Shown here in pieces: positions 4,167-26,143 of a DNA stretch of 64,000 nt. How positions within the stretch are numbered: position 1 is the first letter of the stretch; each line of letters opens with the position of its first letter. This DNA is from an uncultured Acetobacteraceae bacterium (lineage in GTDB: Bacteria; Pseudomonadota; Alphaproteobacteria; Acetobacterales; Acetobacteraceae). The translations under genes were made by a program, and so were the position numbers. The stretch spans positions 1-64,000 of the forward strand of contig CALMVI010000005.1 in NCBI GenBank assembly GCA_937873095.1, in the 5' to 3' direction. Below the pieces are notes generated by a model. The model ran no database searches. It was given only the letters and a program-made list of their open reading frames with translations, and was not told the DNA's origin.

Positions 4167-4548
4167 CCCCGCCCGCCTTCGCCGCGTCATGGTCGTCGAG
4201 GACGAGCTGCTGGTGGCGATGCTGATCGAGGACGCGTTGCGAGAACAAGGCTACGACGTGGTCGGGCCGTTCACCAACCTGCCCGACGCGCTGGCAGCCG
4301 CCGGCCGCGAGTCGGCCGATGTCGCCCTGCTCGACGTCAACTTGCGCGGAGAGCGCGTCTATCCGGTGGCCGAGCTGCTCGAAGCACGGGGCATCCCGTT
4401 CCTGCTGCTGTCCGGCTACGGAACAAGCGCGGTACCGCCCGAGCACGCCGACTGGGCGGCCTGCGCCAAGCCGTTCATGCCCAAGGACCTGACCCGCCAG
4501 ATGGAGTGGGTCATGGAACGGTCCCGGGCGAAGGTGGGCCTGGCGTAG
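4159..4548 (+). CDS. Single-domain response regulator receiver
   Basis: The product is a 129-residue receiver domain without an output domain. The acidic pair is in VVEDE, the phosphoacceptor is Asp59 in LLDVN, and the conserved Lys104 is in CAKPF. The start ATG at 4159 overlaps the end of the kinase gene by 8 bp, which suggests translational coupling and makes the HWE kinase its likely phosphodonor. Single-domain receivers next to HWE kinases often act as phosphate sinks or protein-interaction switches, as in general stress signalling of alphaproteobacteria; that role is inferred here. Confidence 0.9.
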   Translation: MDDPARLRRVMVVEDELLVAMLIEDALREQGYDVVGPFTNLPDALAAAGRESADVALLDVNLRGERVYPVAELLEARGIPFLLLSGYGTSAVPPEHADWAACAKPFMPKDLTRQMEWVMERSRAKVGLA

Positions 4549-4570
4549 CGGCCAGCCGGTAGTGCGTGCT

Positions 4571-4595
4571 CCCTGCCGGCCTGGCATCGGCAGGG
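4571..4595 (+). terminator. Hairpin downstream of the response regulator
   Basis: The arms ccctgccg (4571-4578) and cggcaggg (4588-4595) are perfectly complementary around a 9-nt loop, 22 bp after the response regulator stop. There is no T-tract, so this may be a Rho-assisted or 3'-stabilising hairpin. The remainder of 4596-4794 shows no convincing gene. Confidence 0.45.
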
Positions 4596-23265: not shown

Positions 23266-23384
23266 TCTCGCATCTGCGAGAGGCAGCGCCTATCTAGCCG
23301 GCACCGGCACGTGCAGGGTCTGACGCAGCGTCAGGCCCTTTTCGTATGCGCGGCCCCCAAACTCCGTCTGCAGAGTGCGCGCCC

Positions 23385-25208
23385 ATGGACATCCGCAACA
23401 TCGCCATCATCGCCCATGTCGACCATGGCAAGACCACGCTGGTCGACCAGCTGCTGCGGCAGTCCGGCGCGTATCGCGAGCACCAGGCGGTGGTGGAGCG
23501 CGCGCTGGACCGCAACGACCTGGAGAAGGAACGCGGCATCACCATCCTGGCCAAATGCGCGAGTGTTGTCTGGCACGAGACGCGCATCAACATCGTCGAC
23601 ACCCCGGGCCACGCCGATTTCGGCGGCGAGGTCGAACGCATCCTCAACATGGTGGATGGCGCGATCGTGCTGGTCGATGCCGCAGAGGGCGTGCTGCCGC
23701 AAACGAAATTCGTGGTCGGCAAGGCACTGCAGCGCGGCATCAAGCCGATCGTGGTCGTCAACAAGATCGACCGCCAGGACGCGCGCGCCGACGAGGTCCA
23801 CACCGAAGTGTTCGACCTGTTTGCCGCCCTCGGCGCCACCGACGAGCAGCTCGACTTCCCGATGCTCTACGCCTCCGGCCGGCAAGGCTGGGCGGATGCC
23901 GAGCTGAACGGCCCCCGCAAGGACCTTTCGGCGTTGTTCGACCTCGTGCTGAGCCACGTGAAAGCGCCGGCGCTGGATGCCGAGGCGCCGTTCGCCATGG
24001 TCGCCTCCATTCTGGAGTACGACCAGTTCCTCGGCCGCGTGTTGACCGGCCGCATCGAGCAGGGCCGCGCCCGCCTCAACATGCCCGTCCGCGTGCTGCG
24101 CCAGGATGGCACGGTCGTGGAGAGCGGCCGCCTCACCAAGCTGCTCGGCTTCCGCGGCCTGGACCGGGTGACGGTGGAGGAGGCCGAAGCCGGCGACATC
24201 GTCGCGGTGGCGGGCCTCACCGACGCCACCATCCCCGACAGCATCGGCGCACCCGAGCTGACCCAGCCGTTGCACGCCATCCCCGTCGATCCGCCGACTC
24301 TGGCGATGACGTTCCGCGTGAACGACGGTCCGCTCGGCGGCAAGGAAGGCAAGAAGGTGACGTCGCGCCAGATCCGCGAGCGCCTGCTGCGCGAGGCCGA
24401 AGGCAACGTCGCGATCAAGATCACCGAGAGCAACGAGGCGGACGCCTTCGAGGTCGCCGGCCGCGGCGAGTTGCAGCTCGGCGTGCTGATCGAAACGATG
24501 CGTCGGGAGGGCTTTGAGCTGTCGATCGGCCGCCCGCGCGTGCTGACACAGACCAACGAGGAGACCGGCGAGCGCGAGGAGCCGTTCGAGGAGGTTCTGG
24601 TCGATGTGGACGAGCCCTATTCCGGCGTGGTCGTGGAAAAGCTGAGCCGCCGCAAAGGCCAGATGCAGGACATGCGCCCGTCCGGCGGCGGCAAGGTGCG
24701 CCTCACCTTCATCATGCCCAGCCGCGGCCTGATCGGCTATCACGGCGAGTTCCTGACCGACACGCGCGGCACCGGCATCATGAACCGCCTGTTCGCCGGC
24801 TACCGCCCCTGGGCCGGCACGATCGAAGGCCGCCGCAACGGCTCGCTCATCAGCTCCGAAAACGGCGCCACCGTGCAGTACGCCCTATGGTACCTGCAGG
24901 AACGCGGCACCCTCTTCGTCAACCCGGGCGAAGCCGTCTATGTCGGCATGATCCTGGGCGAACACTCCCGCGAAAGCGACCTCGACATCAACCCGATCAA
25001 GGAAAAGAAGCTCACCAACATCCGCGCCGCCGGCAAGGACGAAGCCATGCTGCTGATCCCGCCACGCCGCCTCAACCTCGAACAAGCCATCGCCTATATC
25101 GAAGACGACGAGCTGGTGGAGGTGACGCCGAGCGCGGTGCGGATCCGCAAGCGGTACCTGGACCCGAACGAGCGCAAGCGGAACGAGAAGAAATCGGTGG
25201 CGGCGTAG
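23385..25208 (+). CDS. typA: Translational GTPase TypA/BipA
   Basis: A 607-residue ribosome-binding GTPase. It has G1 AHVDHGKTTL, the switch I block ERGITILAKCASV, G3 DTPGHADFGGEVERIL, G4 VVNKIDR, EF-G-like domains III and V and the BipA-specific C-terminal domain with MPSRGLIGYHGEFLTDTRGTGIMN. It assists 50S maturation and stress or low-temperature growth. ATG 23385 (MDIRNIAI) is preferred to an in-frame upstream start because it gives the usual N-terminus. Confidence 0.97.
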   Translation: MDIRNIAIIAHVDHGKTTLVDQLLRQSGAYREHQAVVERALDRNDLEKERGITILAKCASVVWHETRINIVDTPGHADFGGEVERILNMVDGAIVLVDAAEGVLPQTKFVVGKALQRGIKPIVVVNKIDRQDARADEVHTEVFDLFAALGATDEQLDFPMLYASGRQGWADAELNGPRKDLSALFDLVLSHVKAPALDAEAPFAMVASILEYDQFLGRVLTGRIEQGRARLNMPVRVLRQDGTVVESGRLTKLLGFRGLDRVTVEEAEAGDIVAVAGLTDATIPDSIGAPELTQPLHAIPVDPPTLAMTFRVNDGPLGGKEGKKVTSRQIRERLLREAEGNVAIKITESNEADAFEVAGRGELQLGVLIETMRREGFELSIGRPRVLTQTNEETGEREEPFEEVLVDVDEPYSGVVVEKLSRRKGQMQDMRPSGGGKVRLTFIMPSRGLIGYHGEFLTDTRGTGIMNRLFAGYRPWAGTIEGRRNGSLISSENGATVQYALWYLQERGTLFVNPGEAVYVGMILGEHSRESDLDINPIKEKKLTNIRAAGKDEAMLLIPPRRLNLEQAIAYIEDDELVEVTPSAVRIRKRYLDPNERKRNEKKSVAA

Positions 25209-25241
25209 TCCGACATGCAATCCGGCGCTCGGCTGTGACAG

Positions 25242-25526
25242 TTGATCGCTATCACAGACGAGCGAATGAGGCACATCCTGGACGGAGACCTGACCGGCGG
25301 CGGCCATCGAGTCGGCAGCGGTCATCCTTCGAAAACGAAGTTTCCCGTCGGCTGGAGCGATGCGATGATCAAGGCGGAACTGCTAGCCGTGGCAAACGAC
25401 CCGGCATCAACCAGGACGTTCCAGCCCAACGGCAAGCTTCGGCTGGAAGGCGTTCGCCAAGGCGTCAAACTGCGAGTCGTCGTCGATCCAACAACGAGCT
25501 TGGTCGTGACAGCCCACCCTTGCTAG
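25242..25526 (+). CDS. Stand-alone bacterial EndoU nuclease toxin domain
   Basis: A 94-residue protein that is essentially only an EndoU_bacteria domain: RHILDGDLTGGGHRVG with His11 and His22, KTKFPVGWSD with Lys31/Lys33, a GV-x-I/L-RVVVD strand and the C-terminal VVTAHPC with Thr90. In the family two His, a Lys and a Thr/Tyr form the RNase active site. Normally this domain is the C-terminal toxin of large secreted proteins (CdiA, MafB and others). Here an in-frame TGA at 25236 closes the frame upstream, so no delivery domain exists. Start is TTG 25242 or ATG 25266; neither has a good ribosome-binding site. A MafI-like immunity gene follows. Orphan toxin cassette or remnant. Confidence 0.8.
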   Translation: MIAITDERMRHILDGDLTGGGHRVGSGHPSKTKFPVGWSDAMIKAELLAVANDPASTRTFQPNGKLRLEGVRQGVKLRVVVDPTTSLVVTAHPC

Positions 25527-25568
25527 CTTGACATTGCGCCAAGCGCTTCCGCGACATAGGAGCCTCGT

Positions 25569-25859
25569 GTGGCCGAGCTCGCTGCTCATCATGACCTGGA
25601 CCAAGCTTTCGAGATGTTGCTCGCCGATCTTTCGGAGAGTTGGGCGAGCGCTGACATCGCCTACGTCCGCGATATTGTGAGTCACGGCGAATACCACGAC
25701 GCGCTCGAGAACCTGATCGCGCTCGATGATAACAGCCGTCAAACATTTAACCCCGACCAGCTTGGACGCGTTGAGGCCCTCGCGCGGAACATTGGAACGA
25801 GCGTTTCCGCTCTACAGGCGGCCCTTCACCACCGACGCGGCCCTGTCACGGCCCGTTGA
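25569..25859 (+). CDS. MafI-like immunity protein
   Basis: A 96-residue acidic helical protein. The pattern FEMLLADLSESWASADIAYVRDIVSHGEYHDALENLIALDD resembles the MafI family, small immunity proteins that neutralise EndoU-type MafB toxins in Neisseria. The GTG start at 25569 has TAGGAG 6 bp upstream. It lies 42 bp after the EndoU gene, the usual toxin-immunity order. G+C is visibly lower than in typA, suggesting transfer. Assignment rests on remembered family patterns and genomic partner; neutralisation of the adjacent EndoU is inferred. Confidence 0.72.
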   Translation: MAELAAHHDLDQAFEMLLADLSESWASADIAYVRDIVSHGEYHDALENLIALDDNSRQTFNPDQLGRVEALARNIGTSVSALQAALHHRRGPVTAR

Positions 25860-25961
25860 GAGGCTGACCGAACCACGATTGTGCATTTCAACATGCATGC
25901 TCAACCTGTCTTGCGATAGCAAACGCTAGGGTTCAACGCGCTTTAACGGTGAGTTATCGCA

Positions 25962-26003
25962 GCAAGCGTAGGATGGGGTGTGCTTGGGCACCCCGTCCAC
26001 TTC
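25962..26003. repeat. Dispersed repeat (GTAGGGTG type), copy 1
   Basis: The sequence gcaagcgtaggatggggtgt followed by gcttgggcaccccgtccac is a small imperfect hairpin. It matches 31104-31146 at most positions. The type is common as an interspersed element in proteobacterial genomes. The surrounding 25860-26143 region (284 bp) carries no convincing gene. Confidence 0.7.
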
Positions 26004-26143
26004 CGCAACACGCCTTTCTGCCAGCACCTATGGGATTGCCCAAGTAGCCCGCATCGCGCGGGCGCGATGCGGGGTCGGCGTGGAGGTTGGGAGCTGTCCA
26101 GCCGTGTGAGCCTTTGCATCGACAGCAGTGCTTCGCCGCCGCG

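Follow-up and report, generated by a model that had tools for sequence, protein, structure and literature searches.

The stretch of DNA analysed here, 64,000 nucleotides of contig CALMVI010000005.1 from an uncultured Acetobacteraceae bacterium (hereafter the window; draft genome of 162 contigs, 99.8% complete), holds two short open reading frames (ORFs) between typA (23346-25208, + strand) and a TraT-family gene (26144-26962, - strand; PF05818). The first encodes an EndoU toxin domain that stands alone, and the second, directly downstream across a gap of 42 nt, encodes a MafI-like partner.

25242-25526, + strand: stand-alone EndoU toxin ORF, 94 amino acids, TTG start, stop codon at 25524-25526
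25569-25859, + strand: MafI-like immunity (antitoxin) ORF, 96 amino acids, GTG start, stop codon at 25857-25859, all-helical model

The coordinates of the pair, as well as the in-frame TGA (25236-25238) one codon before the toxin's TTG, had been given in a first-pass annotation of this DNA and were confirmed by the sequence. Chance ORFs were ruled out by the profile matches of both proteins. The identity of the pair is settled.

The 94-residue product matches the EndoU family PF14436 at E 1.3e-8 (35.7 bits, the cut-off being 25.3; positions 64-127 of the 129-position profile). A leave-one-out profile built from six relatives, with the window protein excluded, recovered the toxin at 2.9e-37, with the next of the 393 window ORFs at 1.3, and the EndoU domain proposed in the first-pass annotation is thereby borne out. 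The EndoU active site is made up of two histidines and a lysine plus a serine or threonine (PMC9086364, PMC3482391). All four positions could be located in alignment A5, whose 17 rows include the window toxin.

25272-25274, + strand: codon of His11 in the HILDGD motif, predicted catalytic, invariant in the 17 rows
25305-25307, + strand: codon of His22 in the GGGH motif, predicted catalytic, invariant in the 17 rows
25332-25334, + strand: codon of Lys31, predicted catalytic, invariant in the 17 rows
25509-25511, + strand: codon of Thr90 in the last strand, predicted active-site alcohol, T or S in the 17 rows

An AlphaFold2 model of the toxin (17 sequences) has a mean predicted local distance difference test score (pLDDT) of 95.2 across the 94 residues, and longer relatives in A5 contain the same core of roughly 90 residues. 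Because the fold is confident over all 94 residues, the ORF is a whole domain and not a stump; translation from the other possible start, an ATG at 25266, would remove part of the first helix. Structural comparison with VIA-align placed BECR nucleases in the top rows (CdiA-CT Kp342, Z 7.9, root mean square deviation 2.8, 86 residues aligned; CDI Serratia, 7.6; colicin D, 6.3; the EndoU toxin CdiA-CT STECO31, 6.0; RelE2, 4.8), with XendoU at 4.2. These Z values are middling, none reaching 8, but the list is a consistent one and supports a BECR fold for the modelled protein. Foldseek returned no match to the toxin model with E below 0.001, and a sequence search of both proteins against solved structures gave weak, unrelated rows only (1 and 8). 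By profile and by model, the 94-residue ORF encodes an entire EndoU domain in which no predicted active-site residue is missing.

For the partner, the proposed likeness to MafI proteins held by one route and not by the other. NF033691 (MafI) matches the 96-residue ORF at E 0.0079 with 16 bits, under its cut-off of 31, and the name is therefore not earned by that model alone. Homology was established through a leave-one-out profile of nine partners, the window protein excluded, which found the ORF at 6e-14, with the next of the 393 ORFs at 0.038. In the alignment of EndoU partners, NF033691 is matched by nine of the 11 rows with E no higher than 0.05 (best 9.8e-17); the window protein is one of these nine, so that 8 of the 10 others match. 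Its identity is 42% to the partner of the toxin in genome G103 and 43% (40 of 93) to the partner in genome G394. The AlphaFold2 model of the partner is all-helical (mean pLDDT 82.5), and its scores with bacteriocin immunity bundles (PedB, Z 8.5; EntA-im, 7.9) were left unused because helical bundles give such scores easily. MafI2 of strain B16B6, whose structure is solved, has a mixed alpha/beta fold and serves a toxin of RNase A fold (PMC9970974), for which reason its structure does not decide the matter. Judged on these profile matches, the 96-residue ORF is a divergent MafI-type immunity protein.

The free-standing form of the toxin recurs in a second genus, represented by G394. The toxins of the window and of G394 are sisters in the EndoU tree (support 99/95), an in-frame stop lies just upstream of each, the window TTG aligns with Met3 of the G394 protein, and G394 keeps all four predicted active-site residues. 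The shared start position suggests that their common ancestor was itself free-standing. The two proteins are identical at 52 of 94 residues, and their genes differ at 30, 29 and 52 sites in codon positions 1, 2 and 3, respectively (dN 0.42, dS 1.22; dN/dS about 0.35). When neutral evolution to the same divergence was simulated 5000 times in a simple model, identity never exceeded 48%, both frames remained open in 7.3%, and the four catalytic residues were kept in 0.4%. At the level of sequence, the comparison shows protein-level constraint on the toxin. A palindromic repeat is found at both of the G394 contig ends concerned (98.8% over 86 nt; positions 1-200 of L038, beside the toxin, and the end of L113, before the partner), which fits a single locus with the repeat between its genes but leaves this unproven. 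The free-standing toxin of a third genome, G124, is placed elsewhere in the tree, on a weakly resolved part, and the starred branches are compatible with a single origin of the free-standing state that includes it.

One EndoU gene and one partner-type gene were found in the window genome, so that the full-length toxin with an EndoU end that the first-pass annotation suggested looking for elsewhere was not encountered; no RHS repeat was found there either, other delivery families not having been searched. PF14436 was sampled at three ranks (16 of 397 genomes of the family, 20 of 385 of the class and 10 of 398 of the phylum, the window genome counted each time). A partner-profile match lies within 500 nt downstream in 21 of 34 EndoU rows of the window's type, a set that includes partial and broken rows, has locus L051 twice and contains some partners that had gone into the profile. 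Among the 13 rows without such a match, L055, L086 and L095 hold a MafI-like ORF by eye, below threshold. A start codon adjoins the domain in three of the 34 rows only, namely the window, G394 and G124 (ATG). Other EndoU domains end longer frames, as in an RHS-HINT protein (L049) and in Nocardia and other Actinobacteria, Planctomycetota, Photobacterium and a Rhizobium plasmid, and some follow signal or membrane segments by eye. The partner profile matched 11 of 397 genomes, of which two (G017, G185) have weak matches inside 1248-residue frames and are discounted. Profiles were needed for these surveys because, with plain protein queries against 60 relatives, matches to the toxin came from two genomes and to the partner from one, the window genome included in each.

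That the cassette is common to the window's own genus is unsupported, as the 922 bases after typA match nothing in the incomplete genomes of the two other members, G001 and G002. The typA of G002 is 94% identical, and blastn could not match the roughly 8.6 kb that follow it to the window; in G001, typA itself went unmatched as well. The partner had no tblastn match in plasmids or phages. The toxin matched 342 plasmid records, and the named features among the 30 listed are RHS, RhsD or DUF6531; it also matched three phage records (two MuF-like and one "cell wall protein"), and a scan of viral contigs gave three loci.

Several EndoU proteins of other kinds were noted in these searches. A second type in the Acetobacteraceae accounts for at least six family matches (L006, L008, L010, L012 and L014 of genus g19, and L007), and is unlike the window's type; its open frames of 178-369 residues carry an H[VI]FCG motif and, judged by eye, a signal peptide. 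Small alphaproteobacterial EndoU proteins at L052 and L057 (Micavibrio) and at L085 and L090, some of which seem by eye to begin with a signal or membrane segment, have no partner-profile match just downstream and are possibly secreted RNases. Their group includes predators of bacteria. At L039 (G343:C20), an EndoU match contains two in-frame TGA codons, and the same genome also has an open EndoU frame.

Of 33 genomes in G124's genus searched by profile, six contain the window's EndoU type. The toxins of G124 and G394 are intact. In G1139 the toxin is frameshifted and the partner whole; in G1149 the toxin has lost its end and the partner its start; G1146 retains the last part of the toxin only, with a whole partner; and a toxin scrap remains in G406. 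In G119, which came from the family search, the toxin is in pieces and the partner whole. Over the eight Acetobacteraceae loci whose sequence, as far as it was read, holds no delivery part, the toxin is intact in three and broken in five, the partner is whole in six, and no locus combines an intact toxin with a broken partner. This tally includes the window and excludes G103, G100 and G133, which have longer frames, and G019, which is cut by a contig end; the genomes are drafts, so that an isolated frameshift may reflect faulty assembly, and eight loci are too few for a statistical test. The toxin start is gone or unclear in G1146, G119 and G406, and these copies may or may not once have been free-standing. 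Fragments resembling a PIN-type toxin and a Phd-type antitoxin were seen by eye beside decayed EndoU copies (L103, about 4285-4572; L106, near an EndoU scrap), close to a glcD-like gene in two genomes of G124's genus.

The two genes of the window differ in their translation signals.

25558-25562, + strand: AGGAG ribosome-binding site of the immunity gene, six bases before the GTG
25215-25238, + strand: ATG...TGA mini-ORF of seven codons between typA and the toxin, in the toxin's frame and ending 3 nt before the TTG, read from the sequence

The duplex with the anti-Shine-Dalgarno sequence scores -6.5 kcal/mol at the immunity start, which upholds the good ribosome-binding site that had been claimed for it, and -1.8 kcal/mol at the toxin start, against a background median of -2.6 kcal/mol in the window. 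Assumed toxin starts at five loci (window, G394, G124, G1139 and G1149) range from -1.8 to +1.3 kcal/mol, none having a ribosome-binding site, whereas seven of eight partner starts lie between -5.9 and -11.6 kcal/mol (the exception is G1146, at -2.4). Two of these eight partners (G103, G100) go with longer toxins; without them the count is five of six. Translation may also begin in this genome in the absence of a Shine-Dalgarno sequence, since the start of typA itself scores only -2.5 kcal/mol. As a speculation, the mini-ORF could be a reinitiation leader, and it is perhaps due to chance. A read-through fusion of typA with the toxin, which share one frame with a TAG and a TGA between them, was considered weak, because a shared frame is expected by chance in one case out of three. 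Scans for promoters and terminators yielded a single match each, neither positioned to serve the toxin.

Both ORFs have their lowest G+C at codon position 2, as genes show. Their overall G+C (0.604 for the toxin and 0.605 for the partner) is lower than that of typA (0.67), as the first-pass annotation had remarked. Third-position values are 0.71 and 0.66, against 0.90 in typA, 0.93 in a P450 gene and 0.89 in traT, but 0.72 is also the value of a kinase gene 2.5 kb beyond the pair, at 28355; low G+C is therefore not peculiar to the pair and is weak evidence of recent acquisition. No direct repeats flanking the pair were found, no PADLOC match to known defence-system proteins was obtained at E up to 1, and none to phage protein families in PHROGs at E up to 0.01. 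Downstream of the pair, a short sequence at 25958-26022 recurs in the same genome on contigs C147, C1, C106, C31 and C95 at 84-93% identity. The kinase gene (28355-31114) encodes a 919-residue protein in which a transcriptional-regulator domain at the N-terminus, a protein kinase domain and TPR-like matches were detected.

The absence of a delivery gene, part of the original description, holds locally but not for the genome, in which a type VI secretion system (T6SS) was found. Contig C82 (L120, G000:C82) encodes VgrG-like, Hcp, ClpV-like, TssA, TssB, two tandem TssC-like, gp25-like and TssF proteins, so that baseplate, sheath, Hcp, VgrG-like and ClpV-like genes, the parts covered by the search, are represented. 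Linkage to hcp, vgrG or PAAR genes is absent: the pair is a neighbour of typA on contig C5, with every T6SS gene that was detected lying on C82.

The literature already describes pairs of EndoU with MafI, orphan cassettes, and an orphan pair that behaves as a toxin-antitoxin (TA) module. In the Neisseria MafB-CT/MafI system (EndoU, MGI-1 of NEM8013), an EndoU domain is likewise followed at once by a small MafI-type immunity gene, and some orphan mafB-CT cassettes have a TTG start and are potentially translated, others having no start (PMC4287609). The present pair differs from the Neisseria maf loci in that there is no full-length toxin at the locus and no second EndoU in the genome, and in that the partner is under the NF033691 cut-off. 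The structural match to CdiA-CT/CdiI of STECO31 (PDB 5HKQ) has 22% identity over 88 residues; His, His, Lys and Thr are among the active-site residues listed for that toxin, which is a 143-residue chain from a CdiA, and its CdiI is mixed alpha/beta (PMC9086364), whereas the partner here is predicted to be all-helical. The Salmonella SPI-6 protein PAAR-RhsA-EndoU_bacteria also has a MafI-type immunity protein, but its EndoU is fused to PAAR-Rhs (PMC10469887). An orphan Rhs toxin-immunity pair of Salmonella Typhimurium acts as a type II TA module, the tip and its immunity protein being expressed in the cell without the delivery part (PMC7043789); here the pair stands alone and the toxin family is EndoU. 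Toxins of RelE-type type II TA systems share the BECR fold, a length of about 90 residues and a small adjacent antidote, but the present toxin has an EndoU active site, its helical antidote lacks a recognised DNA-binding domain, and the toxin gene comes first. Standalone toxin cassettes have been discussed in general terms (PMC3482391). No description of a free-standing EndoU-MafI module that lacks a parent toxin and is common to genera was found in the literature, most subscription journals lying outside the search.

The first-pass annotation had offered a recombination donor, a decayed locus kept for immunity and an intracellular TA pair as explanations. The last of these fits best, as far as sequences can tell, because the free-standing form is common to another genus and is constrained, and the pair is tentatively taken to behave like a type II-like TA module with no delivery protein. 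Such a pair would account together for a toxin that is intact although its start is weak, for an antidote with a strong start and for the missing delivery part. It would be an accessory unit of two genes that descends from the tip, the toxin part, of polymorphic toxins. The toxin would be made at a low level from its TTG without a ribosome-binding site, after typA or from a local promoter, and the well-translated helical MafI-like protein would bind and block it. If immunity fell short, through loss of the locus, stress or proteolysis, the EndoU RNase might cleave cellular RNA, perhaps tRNA, and growth would stop. Retention of the pair in the genome would follow, and the pair may also protect against delivered EndoU toxins of the same type.

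Several points weigh against a TA module. The toxin, with its TTG and no Shine-Dalgarno sequence, may not be made at all. The partner has no Pfam match below E 0.1, so there is no DNA-binding domain and no hint of autoregulation. The constraint argument presumes a free-standing common ancestor of the window and G394 copies, the dS between them is near saturation, the sister relation of their partners (90/79) is under the star threshold of the tree tool, and the G394 partner is located on another contig. The locus is patchy, EndoU being found in neither of the two other genus members (85% and 89% complete), and a broken toxin in five of eight loci also fits plain decay. With a T6SS in the genome, the toxin could also be delivered in trans.

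If selection acted only on the immunity gene, against EndoU toxins delivered by neighbours, the toxin would be an untranslated relic that is still unbroken here. The contrast between toxin and partner starts in ribosome-binding sites favours this, as do the whole partner frames beside frameshifted, truncated or fragmented toxins in G1139, G1146 and G119, and there is precedent in an expressed orphan cdiI beside cdiA-CT modules without an initiation codon and in silent mafB-CT cassettes (PMC9086364, PMC4287609). An untranslated relic, however, would not be expected to show the open frames, the four predicted catalytic residues and the low dN/dS seen between the window and G394, and this explanation is considered rather unlikely. 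A decayed locus kept for immunity describes several relatives; it does not describe the copy in the window, where the toxin still has an intact frame and an intact predicted active site. The T6SS on C82 would allow the 94-residue toxin to be a cargo effector, loaded into Hcp or onto VgrG and injected into rivals with the partner as its immunity protein, since such effectors bind core components non-covalently (PMC10469887). This is improbable for a pair that lies away from the T6SS genes found and has neither a recognised secretion marker nor a good translation start.

Two further explanations are very improbable. Orphan toxin-immunity cassettes are classical in maf and cdi loci (PMC4287609, PMC9086364), and the pair could on that model be a silent donor for swapping onto a full-length polymorphic toxin. 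A donor needs a recipient, and none was found: there is no other EndoU gene and no RHS repeat in the genome (within the families searched), typA and not a toxin gene lies upstream, and the free-standing form with its own start is common to two genera; the recombination donor of the first-pass annotation was accordingly set aside. A polymorphic toxin recently truncated and on its way to loss, without function, would agree with the 324-residue frame of the close relative G103, in which Pfam finds EndoU only, and with the remnants in G124's genus, but the two intact free-standing toxins that are sisters, and the constraint between them, make it hardly credible.

The TA module preferred here could also be one of a family, in which a minimal EndoU domain was cut loose from polymorphic toxins in the Acetobacteraceae and is inherited as a free intracellular module, a counterpart of the RelE type scattered over chromosomes beside housekeeping genes; this wider proposal is doubtful. 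Orphan cassettes are common and may persist as silent spare parts, shields or working TA modules. In the window genome no full-length EndoU toxin was found that the pair could serve, yet the toxin retains its predicted active site and is constrained between the two genera. The pair, whose genes have 94 and 96 codons, is a clean case in which these three explanations can be told apart by experiment.
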